From assembly GCA_017522745.1 (NCBI GenBank), contig JAFWYI010000085.1, forward strand, positions 1 to 6,906: a stretch of DNA of 6,906 nucleotides. The letters are read 5' to 3'. Every line of letters starts with the position of its first letter. Position 1 is the first letter of the stretch. Under the pieces are notes generated by a model. It saw only the letters and a program-made list of their open reading frames with translations. It did not search any database and had not been told where the DNA came from. This DNA comes from Mailhella sp. GTDB lineage: Bacteria > Desulfobacterota > Desulfovibrionia > Desulfovibrionales > Desulfovibrionaceae. Both the position numbers and the translations under genes were made by a program. This document shows positions 607-6,427 of this stretch, in pieces.

Positions 607-1395
607 TCAGCAGCCGGTCTTTTTCTTGCCGCTGGAAAGTTCGCAGTGTACGGCGCGACCTTTCACGCCGCTTTCGCTTTCTCCGTTGAGATGCGTCGGG
701 ATGAGCGCACGCAGGCTGGTCATGACGGTGCTTTCGGGCGAGGGGATGTCCGCAAAGGGGAAGGGCAGGCCCATGTCGTCGTATTTCACCTGACAGACCT
801 TGCGGAAAGGCAGGAGTTCCAGCTTGTCCACGCAGGGGTGCGCTTCCGCGATGCGGATGAGTTCGCGCACGCTCTCCTCGTCGTCGTTCAGACCGGGGAT
901 AGTCACCTGCCGCAGGGTTGTGGGCTTGCCCAGCTCGTCGAGCCGCGCAAGGAAGCGCATGGGCGCGGCGAGCCCGCAGCCAACGTGGGCGCGGTACTTC
1001 TCTTCGGTCACGTATTTGATGTCGAGCAGGACGCGGTCGGTCTCGACCAGCAGGGCTTCGACATCGTCATTGAGGATGCAGCCAGAGGTGTCGAGGCAGG
1101 TGTTCAGCCCGGCCTCGTGGCAGAGCCGGAACAGCTCCGCGCAGAACTCCGCCTGCATGAGCGGTTCGCCGCCGGAGATGGTGAGTCCGCCTTCTTCCCC
1201 GAAGTACTCGCGGAAGCGCAGGGCTTTCTGCAGGATGGCTTCCGCCGTCCATTCCTTACCACCTGCGGGGTCCCACGTGTCCGGGTTATGGCAGCAGCCG
1301 CAGCGCAGCGGGCAGCCCTGCGCGAAGGCTACGAAGCGTACCCCCGGGCCGTCTAAGGTGCCGAGGCTCTGGAAGGAATGGAAGCGACCGTTCAT
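607..1395 (-). CDS. pflA: Pyruvate formate-lyase activating enzyme (radical SAM)
   Basis: This 262-residue cytosolic enzyme uses S-adenosylmethionine and a [4Fe-4S] cluster to abstract a hydrogen from the radical glycine of PflB. The N-terminal IHSF-like start, the GTLDGPGVRF block (12-21), the radical SAM cysteines C28-x3-C32-x2-C35 followed by HNPDTWD, the SGGEP motif (74-78), DTSGC, LLDIKY and LLPFRKVCQVKY are all characteristic of PflA. Two features are unusual. The residue before the third cluster cysteine is Cys34 instead of the usual aromatic. There is also a C-terminal extension of about 20 residues, ending KKKTGC, relative to the 246-residue E. coli enzyme. The start is supported by GGAG (1401-1404) placed 5 nt before the ATG. 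No convincing promoter is visible in the 107-bp gap from pflB, so expression probably depends on read-through of the terminator at 1460-1491. Assignment as an activase is very secure, and PflB as its partner follows from adjacency. Confidence 0.95.
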   Translation of the reverse strand: MNGRFHSFQSLGTLDGPGVRFVAFAQGCPLRCGCCHNPDTWDPAGGKEWTAEAILQKALRFREYFGEEGGLTISGGEPLMQAEFCAELFRLCHEAGLNTCLDTSGCILNDDVEALLVETDRVLLDIKYVTEEKYRAHVGCGLAAPMRFLARLDELGKPTTLRQVTIPGLNDDEESVRELIRIAEAHPCVDKLELLPFRKVCQVKYDDMGLPFPFADIPSPESTVMTSLRALIPTHLNGESESGVKGRAVHCELSSGKKKTGC

Positions 1396-1459
1396 GAGGA
1401 CTCCGAAGTGTTGCTGAGGACGGGATGGGGAAGCGCGGCGAGTTTTCGGCGCGGGAATG

Positions 1460-1491
1460 AAAAAGGCGGCCGCCCGTGTGGACAGCCGCCT
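1460..1491 (-). terminator. Intercistronic terminator between pflB and pflA
   Basis: On the minus strand, AGGCGGC (1491-1485) pairs with GCCGCCT (1470-1464). The stem continues through UGUCC/GGGCG (two G-U pairs) to an ACAC tetraloop, for about 12 bp. The 3' arm runs directly into TTTTT (1464-1460). It starts 12 nt past the pflB stop. This is a textbook intrinsic terminator inside an otherwise co-directional pair, and a partial one would make pflB transcripts more abundant than pflA. Confidence 0.85.
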
Positions 1492-1502
1492 CGCATGGTT
1501 CG

Positions 1503-3734
1503 TTACACAGCCTCGTGGAAGGTACGGCTGATGACTTCCTTCTGCTGTTCACGAGACAGCTTATGGAAGTTCACCGCGTAGCCGGACACGCGGATGGTGA
1601 GGTTGGGGTAGGCTTCGGGGTCTTCGTAAGCCTTCATGAGCGTTTCGCGGTTGAGGACGTTCACGTTGATGTGATGGGCTTTCTTGGCGAAGTAGCCGTC
1701 GAGGATGGCCACGAGGTTGCCCACGCGTTCGCCTTCTTCACGACCGAGGGCTTCGGGCGTGATGGAGAAGGTGTTGGAGATACCGTCGCGGCAGTCGTCG
1801 TAACTGATCTTGGCCACGGAGTTCAGCGAGGCGAGGGCGCCGTTCTCTTCGCGGTTATGCATGGGGTTGGCGCCGGGGGCGTAGGCTTCGCCAGCCTTGC
1901 GGCCATCCGGGGTGGCACCGGTGTTCTTGCCGTACATCACGTTGGAGGTGATGGTAAGCACGGAAAGGGTGTGGATGGCGTTGCGATAGGTGGGGGTCTT
2001 GCGCAGTTCGGTGATCACGCGGTGGGCCATATCCTTGGCGATGAGGTCCACGCGGTCGTCATCGTTGCCGAACTTGGGGAAGTCGCCTTCGGTCTTGAAG
2101 TCCACGATGAAGCCGTAGTCGTCGCGCAGGGGCTTGACGTTGGCGTGCTTGATGGCGCTCAGGGAGTCCGCCACCACGGAGAGACCGGCGATGCCGAAGG
2201 CCATGAGGCGTTCCACGCTGGTGTCGTGCAGGGCCATCTGCGTCTTCTCGTAGGCGTACTTGTCATGCATGTAATGGATGACGTTCATGGTGTTCACGTA
2301 GAGGTGGCACAGCCATTCGAGATAGATCTGGTAGCGTTCCATCACGGCGTCGAAGTCCAGCTTTTCCACGTTCATCACGTCCATCTGCGGGCCGATGTGC
2401 ATCTTGCTGGTGGTATCGTAGCCGCCGTTCAGGGCGATGAGGAGCAGCTTGCCGAGGTTGCAGCGGGCACCGAAGAACTGCATCTGCTTGCCCACACGCA
2501 TGGCGGAAACACAGCAGGCGATGGCGTAGTCGTCGCCGTAGAGGGGGCGCATCACGTCGTCGTTCTCGTACTGGATGGAGTCGGTATCCACGGAGACCTT
2601 GGCGCAGAAGCGCTTGAAGGGCATGGGGAGCTGGTTCGACCACAGCACGGTGAGGTTGGGTTCGGGAGAGGAACCGAGCGTGTAGAGCGTGTTCAGGATG
2701 CGGAAGCTGGACTTGGAAACGAGGGTGCGGCCGTCTTCGCCCATACCGCCCACGGCTTCGGTGATCCACATGGGGTCGCCGCCGAAGAGTTCGTTGTATT
2801 CGGGCGTGCGGAGGTGGCGGGCAAGGCGGAGCTTGATGACGAAGTCGTCGAAGAGTTCCTGGATGCCGGCTTCGTCGATGTCGCCGCGTTCAAGGTCGCG
2901 TTCAGCGTAGATGTCGAAGAAGGTGGCAACGCGGCCGAGGGACATGGCGGCGCCGTTCTGTTCCTTGATGGAAGCGAGGTAGGCGAAGTAGGTCCACTGG
3001 ATGGCTTCCTTGAGGTTGGCGGCGGGCTTGGAGATGTCGAAGCCGTACATGGCGGCCATTTCCTTCATGAAGCCGAGGAAGGCGATCTGCTGGAACAGTT
3101 CTTCGGTGAGGCGCACCTTTTCAGCGTCGAGGTCCATCACGCCGATAGCGGCCTTGTCCTTCTTCTTTTCTTCCACGAGGCGATCGACGCCGTAAAGGGC
3201 CACGCGGCGGTAGTCGCCGATGATGCGGCCGCGACCGTAGGCATCGGGCAGACCGGTGATGACATGGCACTTACGAGCAGCACGCATCTCGTCGGTGTAG
3301 GCGCGGAACACGCCTTCGTTATGCGTGGTGCGGAAGCGGAACTCTTCCTGCACCTTGTCGGAGAGCTTGTAGCCGTAGGCTTCGCAGGCCTGTTTGGCCA
3401 TGCGCATGCCGCCGAAGGGGTTCACGCCGCGCTTGAGGGGGCGGTTGGTCTGGAGGCCGAAGATGAGTTCGTTGTCCTTGTCGACGTAGCCGGGGGAATA
3501 GCTGGTGAGGGAGGAAACGGTAGAGGTGTCCACATCCAGCACGCCGCCGAACTGGCGTTCCAGAGCGAAGAGACCTTCGACCTTCTTCATGAGGGCCTTG
3601 GTGCGGGGGGTAGCTTCGGCGAGGAAGGAATCGTCGCCGGTATATTCCTTATAGTTGAGCTGGATGAAGCCGCGAACGTCGATGGTATCGGTCCATTCAC
3701 CCTTGATGAATCCATCCCAGTTTCTGCTTTCCAT
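1503..3734 (-). CDS. pflB: Formate C-acetyltransferase (pyruvate formate-lyase), glycyl radical enzyme
   Basis: This 743-residue enzyme catalyses CoA-dependent, non-oxidative cleavage of pyruvate to acetyl-CoA and formate in the anaerobic cytosol. The catalytic adjacent cysteines are Cys407-Cys408 in [19 protein letters not shown]. The double Cys identifies a true pyruvate formate-lyase and argues against choline, glycerol or other glycyl radical lyases, which have one. Arg424 in GARCN matches a substrate-binding arginine of the E. coli enzyme at the same offset. The radical-bearing glycine is Gly718 in [17 protein letters not shown], within the C-terminal glycine radical domain (about 620-743). 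Length is near the 760 residues of E. coli PflB, with no truncation. The start is set by AAGGAGA (3741-3747) 6 nt before the ATG. The gene is preceded by a ZTP riboswitch-like leader with a terminator and followed by a terminator and pflA. The exactly opposed antisense frame has no stops across the gene, meaning TTA, CTA and TCA codons are avoided, as in a strongly codon-biased, probably highly expressed gene. Confidence 0.98.
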
Positions 3735-3740
3735 AAAGAT

Positions 3741-3760
3741 TCTCCTTGCGGCGGGGCCGC
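3741..3760 (-). promoter_or_regulatory. pflB ribosome binding site abutting a GC hairpin
   Basis: AAGGAGA (3747-3741) is a strong Shine-Dalgarno site 6 nt before the pflB ATG. It is directly preceded by GCGGC-CCC-GCCGC (3760-3748), a 5-bp all-GC hairpin with a three-base loop. The hairpin leaves the ribosome site single-stranded and may block alternative pairing or affect mRNA stability. The ribosome site is certain; a role for the hairpin is inference. Confidence 0.7.
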
Positions 3761-3774
3761 CTTATATCGCCCGG

Positions 3775-3814
3775 AAATAAAAAAAGGGCGAGTCAGTGCA
3801 TAACTGATTCGCCC
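3775..3814 (-). terminator. Riboswitch-controlled intrinsic terminator in the pflB leader
   Basis: On the minus strand, GGGCGAATCAGT (3814-3803) pairs with ACTGACTCGCCC (3797-3786) over 12 bp with one G-U, around a 5-nt loop. It is followed by seven T, one A and three T (3785-3775). It lies about 40 nt upstream of the pflB start and downstream of the visible promoter, so unregulated transcripts would stop before pflB. Its 5' arm reuses the GGGC that ends the riboswitch pattern, so the terminator and the ligand-bound aptamer are mutually exclusive. Confidence 0.9.
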
Positions 3815-3879
3815 AGACGGTCGGCTAGAAACTTCTGCACTTCCCCGCGGTAATCCGCGAAATTCCGTCAGTCATGCAG
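3811..3879 (-). promoter_or_regulatory. ZMP/ZTP riboswitch aptamer (pfl motif) controlling pflB
   Basis: The minus-strand leader shows the ordered elements of the ZTP riboswitch. P1 is CUGCA (3879-3875) with UGCAG (3839-3835). The conserved UGACUG-type internal segment, here UGACUGACGG, lies at 3874-3865. The P2 hairpin is CGCGG-AUUA-CCGCG (3859-3846), followed by GGGGAAG. A linker follows, and then a GCC...GGC hairpin (3825-3811) whose loop carries CCGUCUGGGC, the counterpart of the family's CCGCCUGGGC. The pseudoknot GACGG (3869-3865) with CCGUC (3820-3816) keeps pairing although one base pair differs from the usual GGCG/CGCC (G-C changed to A-U), a compensatory change that supports the structure. 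The known class binds the purine intermediates ZMP/ZTP and turns expression on when 10-formyl-THF is scarce. The element begins about 5 nt after the likely transcription start and precedes a terminator that overlaps its last helix. The call rests on recognition by eye, without a covariance search. Confidence 0.88.
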
Positions 3880-3889
3880 GAGTGATTCT

Positions 3890-3919
3890 TATTTAGAGGA
3901 AAAATAGGGCTTTTGTCAA
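3890..3919 (-). promoter_or_regulatory. Sigma-70-type promoter of pflB
   Basis: On the minus strand, a perfect -35 TTGACA (3919-3914) is followed after 18 nt by an AT-rich -10 region, TAAATA (3895-3890). The -10 match is only moderate. Transcription would begin near 3883, just before the riboswitch P1 stem, which fits a leader of about 150 nt. It lies between the terminator of the YegP-like gene and the riboswitch, so pflB has its own promoter. No clear FNR-type palindrome was seen around it. Confidence 0.65.
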
Positions 3920-3945: not shown

Positions 3946-3966
3946 AAAAAAACGCCCACAGGGGCG
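3946..3966 (-). terminator. Intrinsic terminator of the YegP-like gene
   Basis: On the minus strand, CGCCC (3966-3962) pairs with GGGCG (3957-3953) around a CTGT loop, and the 3' arm is followed by seven T (3952-3946). The stem is short but all GC. A further inverted repeat, AGGCG/CGCCT (3976-3995), lies between it and the gene's stop. Confidence 0.8.
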
Positions 3967-4008: not shown

Positions 4009-4386
4009 TCACTCGGGCTGAACGATGAAGATCTTGGCATCGGGAGCGTTGGTCCGCACGCTTTCGATACCGTTCAGGCAGGATGCCTTGCTCTTGTATT
4101 CTTCGGAAGCAGCGATGATGGCGCCGTTCTTGGCCTTCAGGCGGAAGCGGAATTCACCGGCCTTGTCGACGTACACTTCGAACTTCGGATTAGTGACTTT
4201 AGCGAAGTCTTCCACAGTCTGGTCTTCCAGTTTGGCGTCGGACGCGTTCCGGCGCACGCTCTCGATGCCCTTATAGCAGGCGGCGGAGCTGGAATAGACT
4301 TCTGAGGAAGCGATGATCTCACCGTTACCGGCTTTGAGGTCGAACCTCAGCCCGGTTTTAACGGTCTTGATGGCAAACGTGCCCAT
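4009..4386 (-). CDS. yegP: YegP-like protein with two DUF1508 repeats
   Basis: This 125-residue protein is built from two tandem DUF1508 units. The first (about 3-56) contains FDLKAGNGEIIASSEVYSS, then CYKGIESVRRNA and DAKLED. The second (about 68-123) contains FRLKAKNGAIIAASEEY, then CLNGIESVRTNA and DAKIFI. The two copies are clearly related along their whole length, in the pattern of E. coli YegP (110 residues). Each unit is expected to fold as a small beta-beta-beta-alpha module. The molecular role of the family is unknown, and no signal peptide or membrane segment is visible. The start is well supported by AGGAGG (4393-4398) 6 nt before the ATG. The gene has its own promoter (4421-4448) and terminator (3946-3966), so it appears to be a single-gene transcript between the hydrogenase operon and pflB. 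Nothing links it functionally to either neighbour. Confidence 0.9.
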   Translation of the reverse strand: MGTFAIKTVKTGLRFDLKAGNGEIIASSEVYSSSAACYKGIESVRRNASDAKLEDQTVEDFAKVTNPKFEVYVDKAGEFRFRLKAKNGAIIAASEEYKSKASCLNGIESVRTNAPDAKIFIVQPE

Positions 4387-4630: not shown

Positions 4631-6427
4631 TCAGATGTCGGTAAGAGTGAGCTTGTTCTTGGTGGCGGTGATGCTTTCCTTCTGCACCTTGCTGCGGTCC
4701 GAGTAGTGGGTGTGCAGCAGTTCGTGAGCCAGATGGGAGTTGGGCTCGCCAAGGAAATCCTTGTAGAGCTGCGTCACCTGCGGGTTCAGATGGGACTGGC
4801 GGCGAGGCATGGCCTTGTCGATCTTGTAAAGGCCCTGCATGCGCTTGGAAGCGTTGGGATGGTATTCGCCCTTCACGCGGCAGGTGCCGCCACCGTCCAC
4901 ACAGCCGCCGGGGCAGGCCATCACTTCGATGAAGGTGTAGGGCGAGGTGCCGGCAACGGCCTCATCCACCAGCTTATGAGCGGCGGCAAGACCATGGCAG
5001 ATGGCGACCTTGATGACGCCGTTGCCTTCGCCGAGGTCCACATCAGCTTCACGCATGGCGGATTCGCCGCGGATGGGCTGCACGTCGATGCCGGGCAGTT
5101 CCTTGCCGTTGAGAACGGCGTACACGGTACGCACAGCCGCTTCCATAACGCCGCCGGTGGTGCCGAAGATGACGGCCGCGCCGGTGGAGTCGCTCATGAA
5201 GGGGTTGTCGAAGGCTTCCGGTTCGATCGTGGTGAGGTCGATGCCGCAGCGGCGCAGCAGGCGGGCGAGTTCACGCACGGTAAGCACCACGTCGGTATCG
5301 GCTATGCCGTTGGTGTGGAGCTGCGGGCGAGCCGCTTCGTCCTTCTTGGCGGTGCAGGGCATGATGGAGATGGTGCGCATCTTCTTGGGGGAGATGCCCA
5401 TCTTGTCGCACAGGTAGGTCTTGCACAGGGCACCCTGCACGGCCTGAGGCGAACGGGTGCTGGAGATGTAGGGCAGGCTTTCAGGGCAATGCTTTTCGGC
5501 GTAGTTCATCCAGCCGGGGCAGCAGGAGGTGAACATGGGCAGCTTGCCGCCTTCCTTGATGCGGTGCAGGAGTTCCGTGCCTTCTTCCATGATGACCACG
5601 TCGGCACCGAAGTCGGTGTCGGTGATGATATCGAAGCCGATGCGGCGCAGGGCGGCGACGAGGCGGCCTTCCACGTTTTCTCCGGGACCGAAGCCGAAGG
5701 CTTCACCCAGCACCACGCGGACGGAAGGCGCGAAGGCCACCACGGTGGTGAGTTCAGGATCGGCGATGTAGTCGAGGACTTCGTCGTTCTGGTCACGTTC
5801 GGCAAGGGCGCCGGTGGGGCACACGATGGTACACTGGCCGCACTGGATGCAGGCGGAGATGTTCTGCGAGGGGGCCATGCCCACGCCCACATGGGCGTTC
5901 ACGCCGGTGCCGTCCACGGTGAGGGCGGCCACGCCCTGGACCTTGCGGCACACTTCCACGCAGCGCAAGCAGCGGATGCACTTGGTCATATCGCGCACCA
6001 TGCCGCGCATGGTATCGTCGAGCGGGCGGTCGATAGCGATGCGGGGGGCGAAGCGGTTGGTGGAAAGACCTACGTATTCGCCGAGGGACTGAAGTTCACA
6101 GTCGCCGTGGCGGGCACAGGCGATGCAGTTCTGGTCATGGTCGGCAAAGATGAGTTCCACCTGCAGCTTCTGCATCTTGCGGACGCTGCTGGAGCGGGTA
6201 TCCACTTTCATGCCGTCCTGCATGGGGGTGTTGCAGGAGGTGACGATGCTGGTGTTGCCCTGAGCGTCGGTCACTTCCACAAGGCAGACGCGGCAGGTGC
6301 CGGGCTTATGATCCAGCGCGTGGAAATGGCAGAGCGTGGGGATGAAGACTCCGTTGCGCTTGGCGACCTGAAGGATGGTCTCCCCCTGCTCGAAGCTGTA
6401 TTCACGGCCATTGATGTATGCTTTCAT
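4631..6427 (-). CDS. hydA: Multi-cluster [FeFe] hydrogenase, catalytic subunit
   Basis: This 598-residue cytosolic enzyme interconverts H2 with protons and electrons. It has the modular M3-type architecture. An N-terminal [2Fe-2S] domain carries Cys33, 45, 48 and 65. A His-ligated [4Fe-4S] site has His97, Cys101, Cys104 and Cys110. Two ferredoxin-like [4Fe-4S] motifs have Cys150/153/156/160 and Cys193/196/199/203. The H-cluster domain shows all three signatures: TSCCPGW (300-306; Cys302), MPCTAKK (356-362; Cys358) and ACPGGCVDGGG (504-514; Cys505 and Cys509). The small-subunit-like domain closes with LYKDFLGEPNSHLAHELLHTHY, after which about 20 polar residues form an unusual tail. No Tat signal is present. 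GAGG (6436-6439) lies 8 nt before the ATG. It follows a flavoprotein gene by 18 nt, so the two are co-transcribed and probably form a complex. The combination suggests exchange of electrons between H2 and NAD(P)(H) or ferredoxin. All cluster ligands are intact. Confidence 0.97.
   Translation of the reverse strand: MKAYINGREYSFEQGETILQVAKRNGVFIPTLCHFHALDHKPGTCRVCLVEVTDAQGNTSIVTSCNTPMQDGMKVDTRSSSVRKMQKLQVELIFADHDQNCIACARHGDCELQSLGEYVGLSTNRFAPRIAIDRPLDDTMRGMVRDMTKCIRCLRCVEVCRKVQGVAALTVDGTGVNAHVGVGMAPSQNISACIQCGQCTIVCPTGALAERDQNDEVLDYIADPELTTVVAFAPSVRVVLGEAFGFGPGENVEGRLVAALRRIGFDIITDTDFGADVVIMEEGTELLHRIKEGGKLPMFTSCCPGWMNYAEKHCPESLPYISSTRSPQAVQGALCKTYLCDKMGISPKKMRTISIMPCTAKKDEAARPQLHTNGIADTDVVLTVRELARLLRRCGIDLTTIEPEAFDNPFMSDSTGAAVIFGTTGGVMEAAVRTVYAVLNGKELPGIDVQPIRGESAMREADVDLGEGNGVIKVAICHGLAAAHKLVDEAVAGTSPYTFIEVMACPGGCVDGGGTCRVKGEYHPNASKRMQGLYKIDKAMPRRQSHLNPQVTQLYKDFLGEPNSHLAHELLHTHYSDRSKVQKESITATKNKLTLTDI

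Follow-up and report, generated by a model that had tools for sequence, protein, structure and literature searches.

The window (the whole 6906-base stretch of DNA that was analysed, from genome G000 of Mailhella, a gut bacterium of the family Desulfovibrionaceae) carries on its minus strand a pflB gene for pyruvate formate-lyase (1503..3734, 743 aa; TIGR01255, 1150.6 bits for a cut-off of 994.2), followed by pflA for the PFL activase, a radical SAM protein (607..1395, 262 aa; TIGR02493, 235.8 bits, cut-off 231.75). The predicted PflB aligns with the E. coli PFL structure sequence 1h16 at 953.5 bits, including IACCVSAM and RVSGYAVNF, which we take to be the adjacent catalytic cysteines and the C-terminal glycyl-radical motif, and to judge by its sequence the gene is a true pyruvate formate-lyase. 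Upstream of pflB lie a DUF1508 gene (4009-4386) and then an [FeFe] hydrogenase gene (4631-6427). A terminator-like hairpin with a T7 run at 3953-3966 (minus strand) separates the DUF1508 gene from the promoter of pflB, and likely ends the upstream transcript. The operon is also present in two other genomes of the genus, referred to below as G070 and G199.

The predicted pflB promoter has a -35 element TTGACA (3914..3919) and a -10 element TAAATA (3890..3895), both read from the minus strand and separated by 18 nt. TTGACA is identical in G070 and G199, where the -10 elements are TAAATA and TAAACA, respectively, with 17-nt spacers of different sequence. A generic scan that demands T at the last -10 position found no sigma-70 promoter in the window. 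The predicted ribosome binding site, AAGGAG, is at 3742..3747 on the same strand (sequence, position by script).

The aptamer and its pseudoknot

The pflB leader matches the ZMP-ZTP family of Rfam (RF01750) over the full model (1-86) at 3885-3804 on the minus strand, scoring 61 bits where the gathering score is 39 (cmscan, E 2.1e-08). This is the single Rfam family found across the whole window at the curated threshold, and the one ZTP match in its MAG (1.68 Mb, 85% complete). The aptamer ends 69 nt before the pflB start. A sequence-only reading of this DNA had placed a ZMP/ZTP riboswitch ahead of pyruvate formate-lyase and named a minus-strand search with the Rfam covariance model as a check; the significant match, together with the TIGR01255 assignment of pflB, bears it out. 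Its interval, 3811..3879, does lie inside the aptamer, but omits the outer pairs of P1 as well as the expression platform, where the terminator reaches to 3779. At the sequence level the leader is confirmed as a ZTP (pfl-motif) riboswitch, with ZMP binding and switching predicted.

The core elements follow one another as P1, GACUGACGG, the P2 hairpin, GGGGAAG, and CCGUCUGGGC (3811-3820), so the parts listed earlier, including the pseudoknot, are all there and in order. The P1 arms are at 3874..3883 (5′) and 3831..3840 (3′), placed by script and, for both arms, examined in an alignment of 52 aptamers. The P2 hairpin CGCGG-AUUA-CCGCG, CGCGGAUUACCGCG, occupies 3846..3859 (sequence, scripted position, and Rfam alignment). 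P3 with its loop L3 spans 3811..3825, GCC at 3823-3825 pairing with GGC at 3811-3813, and the pseudoknot joins GACGG in J1/2 (3865..3869) to CCGUC in L3 (3816..3820; alignment and scripted position). All of these are on the minus strand. The three helices and the conserved core letters are present, and the Rfam alignment shows two mismatched pairs, a C-A in P1 and another next to P3. In the part of PMC10687018 that was available, a U and a G are described as touching ZMP in this class; by position beside the pseudoknot, U3815 and G3814 would correspond to them. The ligand paper for the class is Kim et al. (2015), as cited in the accessible part of PMC7266159.

The 52 aligned aptamers were hand-picked, mostly have standard linker lengths, and comprise three from Mailhella, 26 of 70 from clostridial pflB leaders (described below), and 23 of 28 from other loci of the family. 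In this set, nine of the ten P1 pairs show at least one two-sided change, with 89.2% of cells paired, and the P3 pairs form in 52/52. All five pairs of the J1/2-L3 pseudoknot likewise form in every sequence; three never vary, and two change on both sides (A-U/G-C and G-C/A-U), dividing the set into 29 and 23 sequences. ACGG/CCGU is found in 72 of 73 pflB leaders (the three from Mailhella and 70 from the best clostridial relatives), the remaining one having GCGG/CCGU with a G-U pair. The other fetched Desulfovibrionaceae ZTP riboswitches (L002-L030 except L022) belong to the same RNA family but, unlike that in the window, precede glyA or a BenE-type transporter gene, and have GGCGA/UCGCC in 28/28 cases. 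The change splits by lineage: GACGG/CCGUC versus GGCGA/UCGCC is a real compensated difference, one that marks two lineages rather than many independent events. The pseudoknot had been singled out as a compensated change at this locus. The compensation itself holds up, but it is not peculiar to the locus, being the usual form ahead of clostridial pflB. If the transfer proposed below is right, the tempting over-reading is corrected: the odd pseudoknot is the ordinary form of the donor.

Expression platform and leader folding

An intrinsic terminator is predicted from a computed fold at 3779..3814 (minus strand), as an 11-bp hairpin (6 + 5 pairs with one mismatch) followed by U7. Its minimum free energy (MFE) is -17.3 kcal/mol with the tail and -16.1 for the hairpin alone, against a mean of -4.8 for shuffled sequences, none of which came as low in 1000 shuffles. 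The 5′ arm begins with the GGGC of the aptamer's conserved CUGGGC, so the terminator and P3 should be mutually exclusive. By script criteria an overlapping terminator is present in 71 of the 73 aptamer-bearing pflB leaders (exceptions L119 and L140). The upper stem has other letters in G070 and G199 (GGGCGAUACAG/CUGUGUCGCCC) and still pairs, which supports the terminator stem. The hairpin does not appear in the output of a generic terminator scan of the window. Overlap of a terminator with the 3′ end of the aptamer is the predicted anatomy of a transcription-terminating ON switch. A further copy of GGGCGA, the start of the terminator 5′ arm, lies after the U-tract (3767-3772, minus strand) and might base-pair with the 3′ arm of the terminator once read-through has occurred. 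It is present in the three Mailhella leaders but in just four of 70 clostridial ones, and is therefore not claimed as a conserved anti-terminator.

Folding of the leader raises the question of whether the riboswitch could be decayed or mis-wired, with the aptamer kept and switching poor. An 11-pair match between the P1/J1-2 strand and the terminator arm is visible in the sequence, and the MFE fold of the whole 157-nt leader, in a model that leaves the pseudoknot outside, pairs that strand with the upper arm and loop of the terminator and so differs from aptamer plus terminator. Against this, the conserved letters of the core are retained, with the pseudoknot change compensated, and the same pseudoknot-free computation gives P1/P2 plus the terminator as the optimum for a transcript ending at the U-tract (-36.2 kcal/mol, or -29.9 when the 3′ arm of the terminator is blocked). 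The G070 and G199 leaders have other letters where the two strands meet, and for this reason the pairing looks accidental, while it could weaken switching in the genome of the window. Mis-wiring is accordingly judged quite unlikely.

Distribution, relatives, and origin of the unit

Canonical PflB scores over the cut-off in three of 288 genomes of the family (G000, G070, and G199), which are also three of the 19 genus genomes, and in one of 395 sampled from the phylum (BLAST at E 1e-100, with a maximum of two candidates scored in each genome). All three carry a ZTP riboswitch ahead of pflB. Among named records, the nearest comes from goat colon: Mailhella sp. RGIG2023 (JAFQPD010000111.1, L064), with a PflB 95% identical to that of the window. 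The contig of this record and contig C101 of G199 are identical over 8459 bases, so the two were treated as a single genome in the counts.

The riboswitch itself is more widespread, with matches in 52 of 199 sampled family genomes at E 0.001 (51 over the cut-off). Of 53 matches, 30 loci were fetched; 17 precede glyA, 11 a BenE-type transporter gene, and two (G000 and G070) pflB, as classed by a motif script with six checked against Pfam. Within the genus, two of the 16 genomes drawn have a riboswitch, both ahead of pflB, as does G199 (L033), which was outside the draw. The BenE-type (“benzoate”) transporter loci are L003, L004, L007, L014, L018, L020, L023, L024, L025, L027, and L030, and Pfam PF03594 was found in all three of those tested. 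One idea is that such a transporter under a folate-stress switch might import p-aminobenzoate, a folate precursor; a literature search found no paper linking the ZTP riboswitch with benzoate.

The closest relatives of the Mailhella PflB outside the genus are clostridial. The best 80 of 590 confirmed matches in genome_contigs include one from Mailhella. The other 79, used for comparison and selected by their similarity to the query, are titled as Clostridia or groups within them, apart from one given only as “bacterium,” and 53 titles name a ruminant. Among these best 80, the closest named PflB sequences outside the genus are from Clostridia, at 80–84% identity. The 120 PflB matches listed from a set of 5.8 billion proteins are 83–95% identical; nine of the 120 carry organism names, all of which we take to be Bacillota.

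A ZTP aptamer lies just upstream of pflB in 70 of the 79 loci of these best relatives. The first 12 were scanned with Rfam, and all 12 have the riboswitch. A model with an automatic structure lacking P2 (R1) was used solely to locate aptamers; the 14 loci without an R1 match (eight) or with one above E 0.01 (six) were re-scanned with Rfam, of which five passed. The nine with no scoring aptamer upstream of pflB are L088, L094, L095, L096, L106, L107, L117, L133, and L137. L133, truncated where its contig ends, retains CCGUCUGGGC; L095 has just 173 bases upstream; and the non-scoring leader of L088 contains CCGUCUGG. Of the 71 clostridial loci with 1.2 kb or more of downstream sequence, 70 have pflA directly after pflB.

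Among the three Mailhella loci, the DNA shared with the window runs from the end of pflA to the -10 element (611-3896 in G070; 609-1394 and 1504-3896 in G199), and outside these limits no DNA similarity was found at E 1e-5. In G199 the operon lies between inverted copies of a dispersed repeat of ~450 bp (L153 1855-2340, 2391-2707, 6141-6594), and part of this repeat is found just past pflA in G070 (L152 6810-7075). Its matches number 37 in G070, 27 in G199, and three in G000, as those of a general dispersed repeat would, and the repeat is no proof of a mobile unit; movement of the operon as a composite transposon is thus not proposed.

In a PflB tree of the Mailhella trio, the 79 other sequences, and an E. 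coli outgroup on a long branch, the trio forms one clade (support 100). The forks that nest it among Bacillota have SH-aLRT values of 85 and 87, below the threshold of 95, and no one donor is singled out. When the pseudoknot columns are left out, a tree of the aptamers puts the trio and Clostridia opposite the 23 other family aptamers with 98/94 support, on 74 columns and with an unsettled bootstrap and a long-branch warning. With the same columns removed, the trio aptamers have a mean identity of 0.71 with Clostridia and 0.54 with the other family aptamers. Together with the distribution, the trees suggest that an ancestor of the three Mailhella-like genomes would have acquired riboswitch, pflB, and pflA whole from gut Clostridia.

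Two other histories have to be weighed against this. The unit could instead be ancestral in the Desulfovibrionaceae and lost everywhere else, with no transfer. The RNA class is certainly at home in the family, given its 52 of 199 genomes, and nesting of the trio inside Bacillota is not strongly supported in the PflB tree. Such a history would have to accommodate a canonical PflB found in three of 288 family genomes, all of one genus, along with family riboswitches that otherwise precede glyA or the BenE transporter, differ in their pseudoknot, and fall on the opposite side of the aptamer tree; it is considered unlikely. The contig might also be clostridial DNA binned into a Desulfovibrionaceae MAG, as it is just 6.9 kb long and Clostridia MAGs supply the closest named PflB relatives outside the genus among the best 80 of 590. 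Its flanking [FeFe] hydrogenase is native, however, with matches in 19/19 genus genomes (71–83% identity in 17 of the 18 others, 45% in G042), and two further genomes of the genus carry the same operon, with a 95% identical PflB, in one case on a contig of 97 kb. GC3 (0.845 for pflB, 0.825 for the hydrogenase, 0.821 for pflA, 0.796 for DUF1653, and 0.738 for DUF1508) also sets pflB close to pflA and the hydrogenase and far from the clostridial pflB median (0.525, maximum 0.89). With the hydrogenase native and pflB so close to it in GC3, mis-binning was rejected as most improbable. The same GC3 values indicate that the transfer is not recent, or that the donor was GC-rich.

The reading preferred here, of a riboswitch whose overlapping terminator would switch pflB-pflA on as ZMP/ZTP builds up, acquired as a unit from Clostridia, is thought probable, with confidence limited by the moderate support for nesting in the PflB tree. 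Titles and abstract beginnings in the open-licence literature yielded nothing on transfer of a Desulfovibrio ZTP riboswitch or pfl.

Proposed mechanism and metabolic role

By analogy with the switches of C. beijerinckii and T. carboxydivorans, the P1 and P2 helices and the pseudoknot would be the first elements made by RNA polymerase. If no ligand binds, the CUCGCCC strand would take GGGC from P3, form the terminator, and stop transcription before pflB; with ZMP/ZTP bound, P3 and the pseudoknot would resist and the polymerase read through. The ON logic is inferred from characterized ZTP riboswitches, as described in the portions of PMC10085676, PMC10687018, and PMC7337938 that were available. 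According to the first and second of these, the C. beijerinckii pfl riboswitch is like that of the window in aptamer class, gene, and ON logic of terminator versus P3, but its terminator strand, besides breaking P3, migrates on through the pseudoknot, whereas the stem predicted here takes only GGGC of CUGGGC and competes for P3, not directly for CCGUC. The host also differs, being here a Desulfovibrionaceae genome and not a Clostridium. The T. carboxydivorans ZMP riboswitch, in the accessible sections of PMC7337938, shares the J1/2-L3 pseudoknot and a terminator that takes a P3 strand, in another organism and, by its G-C pairs, with other pseudoknot letters.

Build-up of ZMP/ZTP would signal a shortage of 10-formyl-THF, with PurH stalling at AICAR. 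PflB and PflA would then make formate, which formate-tetrahydrofolate ligase could charge onto folate, and the riboswitch here would tie formate supply to one-carbon demand. A formate-to-formyl-THF rationale for the class was given with the first description of the pfl motif, in the part of PMC2864571 consulted. The ligase gene (fhs) was found in G070 and G199, both with the same operon, and not in the 85% complete MAG of the window (0/1), where FolD and a partial model match to the AICAR transformylase PurH (positions 73-311 of 311) were found. Across the genus, fhs over the cut-off is missing in four of 19 genomes, several of the fhs-less MAGs being incomplete (none in G000, G184, and G200; a weak partial match in G201). 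PurT was considered as an alternative use of formate, and has no match over the cut-off in G000, G070, or G199. It does score over it in two of the 19, G184 and G200, where this formate-dependent enzyme may substitute for the folate route.

Much of this is already known: the ZTP class, its link to pfl, the gene from which the class took its first name, and the switch logic (PMC2864571), and riboswitch transfer as such. The first description of the motif likewise had overlapping terminators, and associations with purH, fhs, pfl, glyA, and folD; an inter-phylum origin of an instance, as proposed for the window, was not among the statements seen in PMC2864571. A lysine-class riboswitch described in the accessible part of PMC5584792 also crossed phyla with the gene it controls, from Firmicutes to Actinobacteria, but differs from the present case in riboswitch class and gene.

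A broader reading, tentative and held at somewhat under even confidence, is that a self-regulated clostridial riboswitch-pflB-pflA module crossed phyla, and that PFL would serve here as a ZTP-controlled biosynthetic source of formate for purines and not as a fermentation enzyme. As part of this reading, the unit would need no protein regulator in a host lineage with genome assemblies of 1.6–2.0 Mb. If true, nothing else from the donor would be needed, since the metabolite sensed is universal and the output comes from an intrinsic terminator, and this one locus would show a gene keeping its own regulation, by way of a riboswitch, after a move between phyla.
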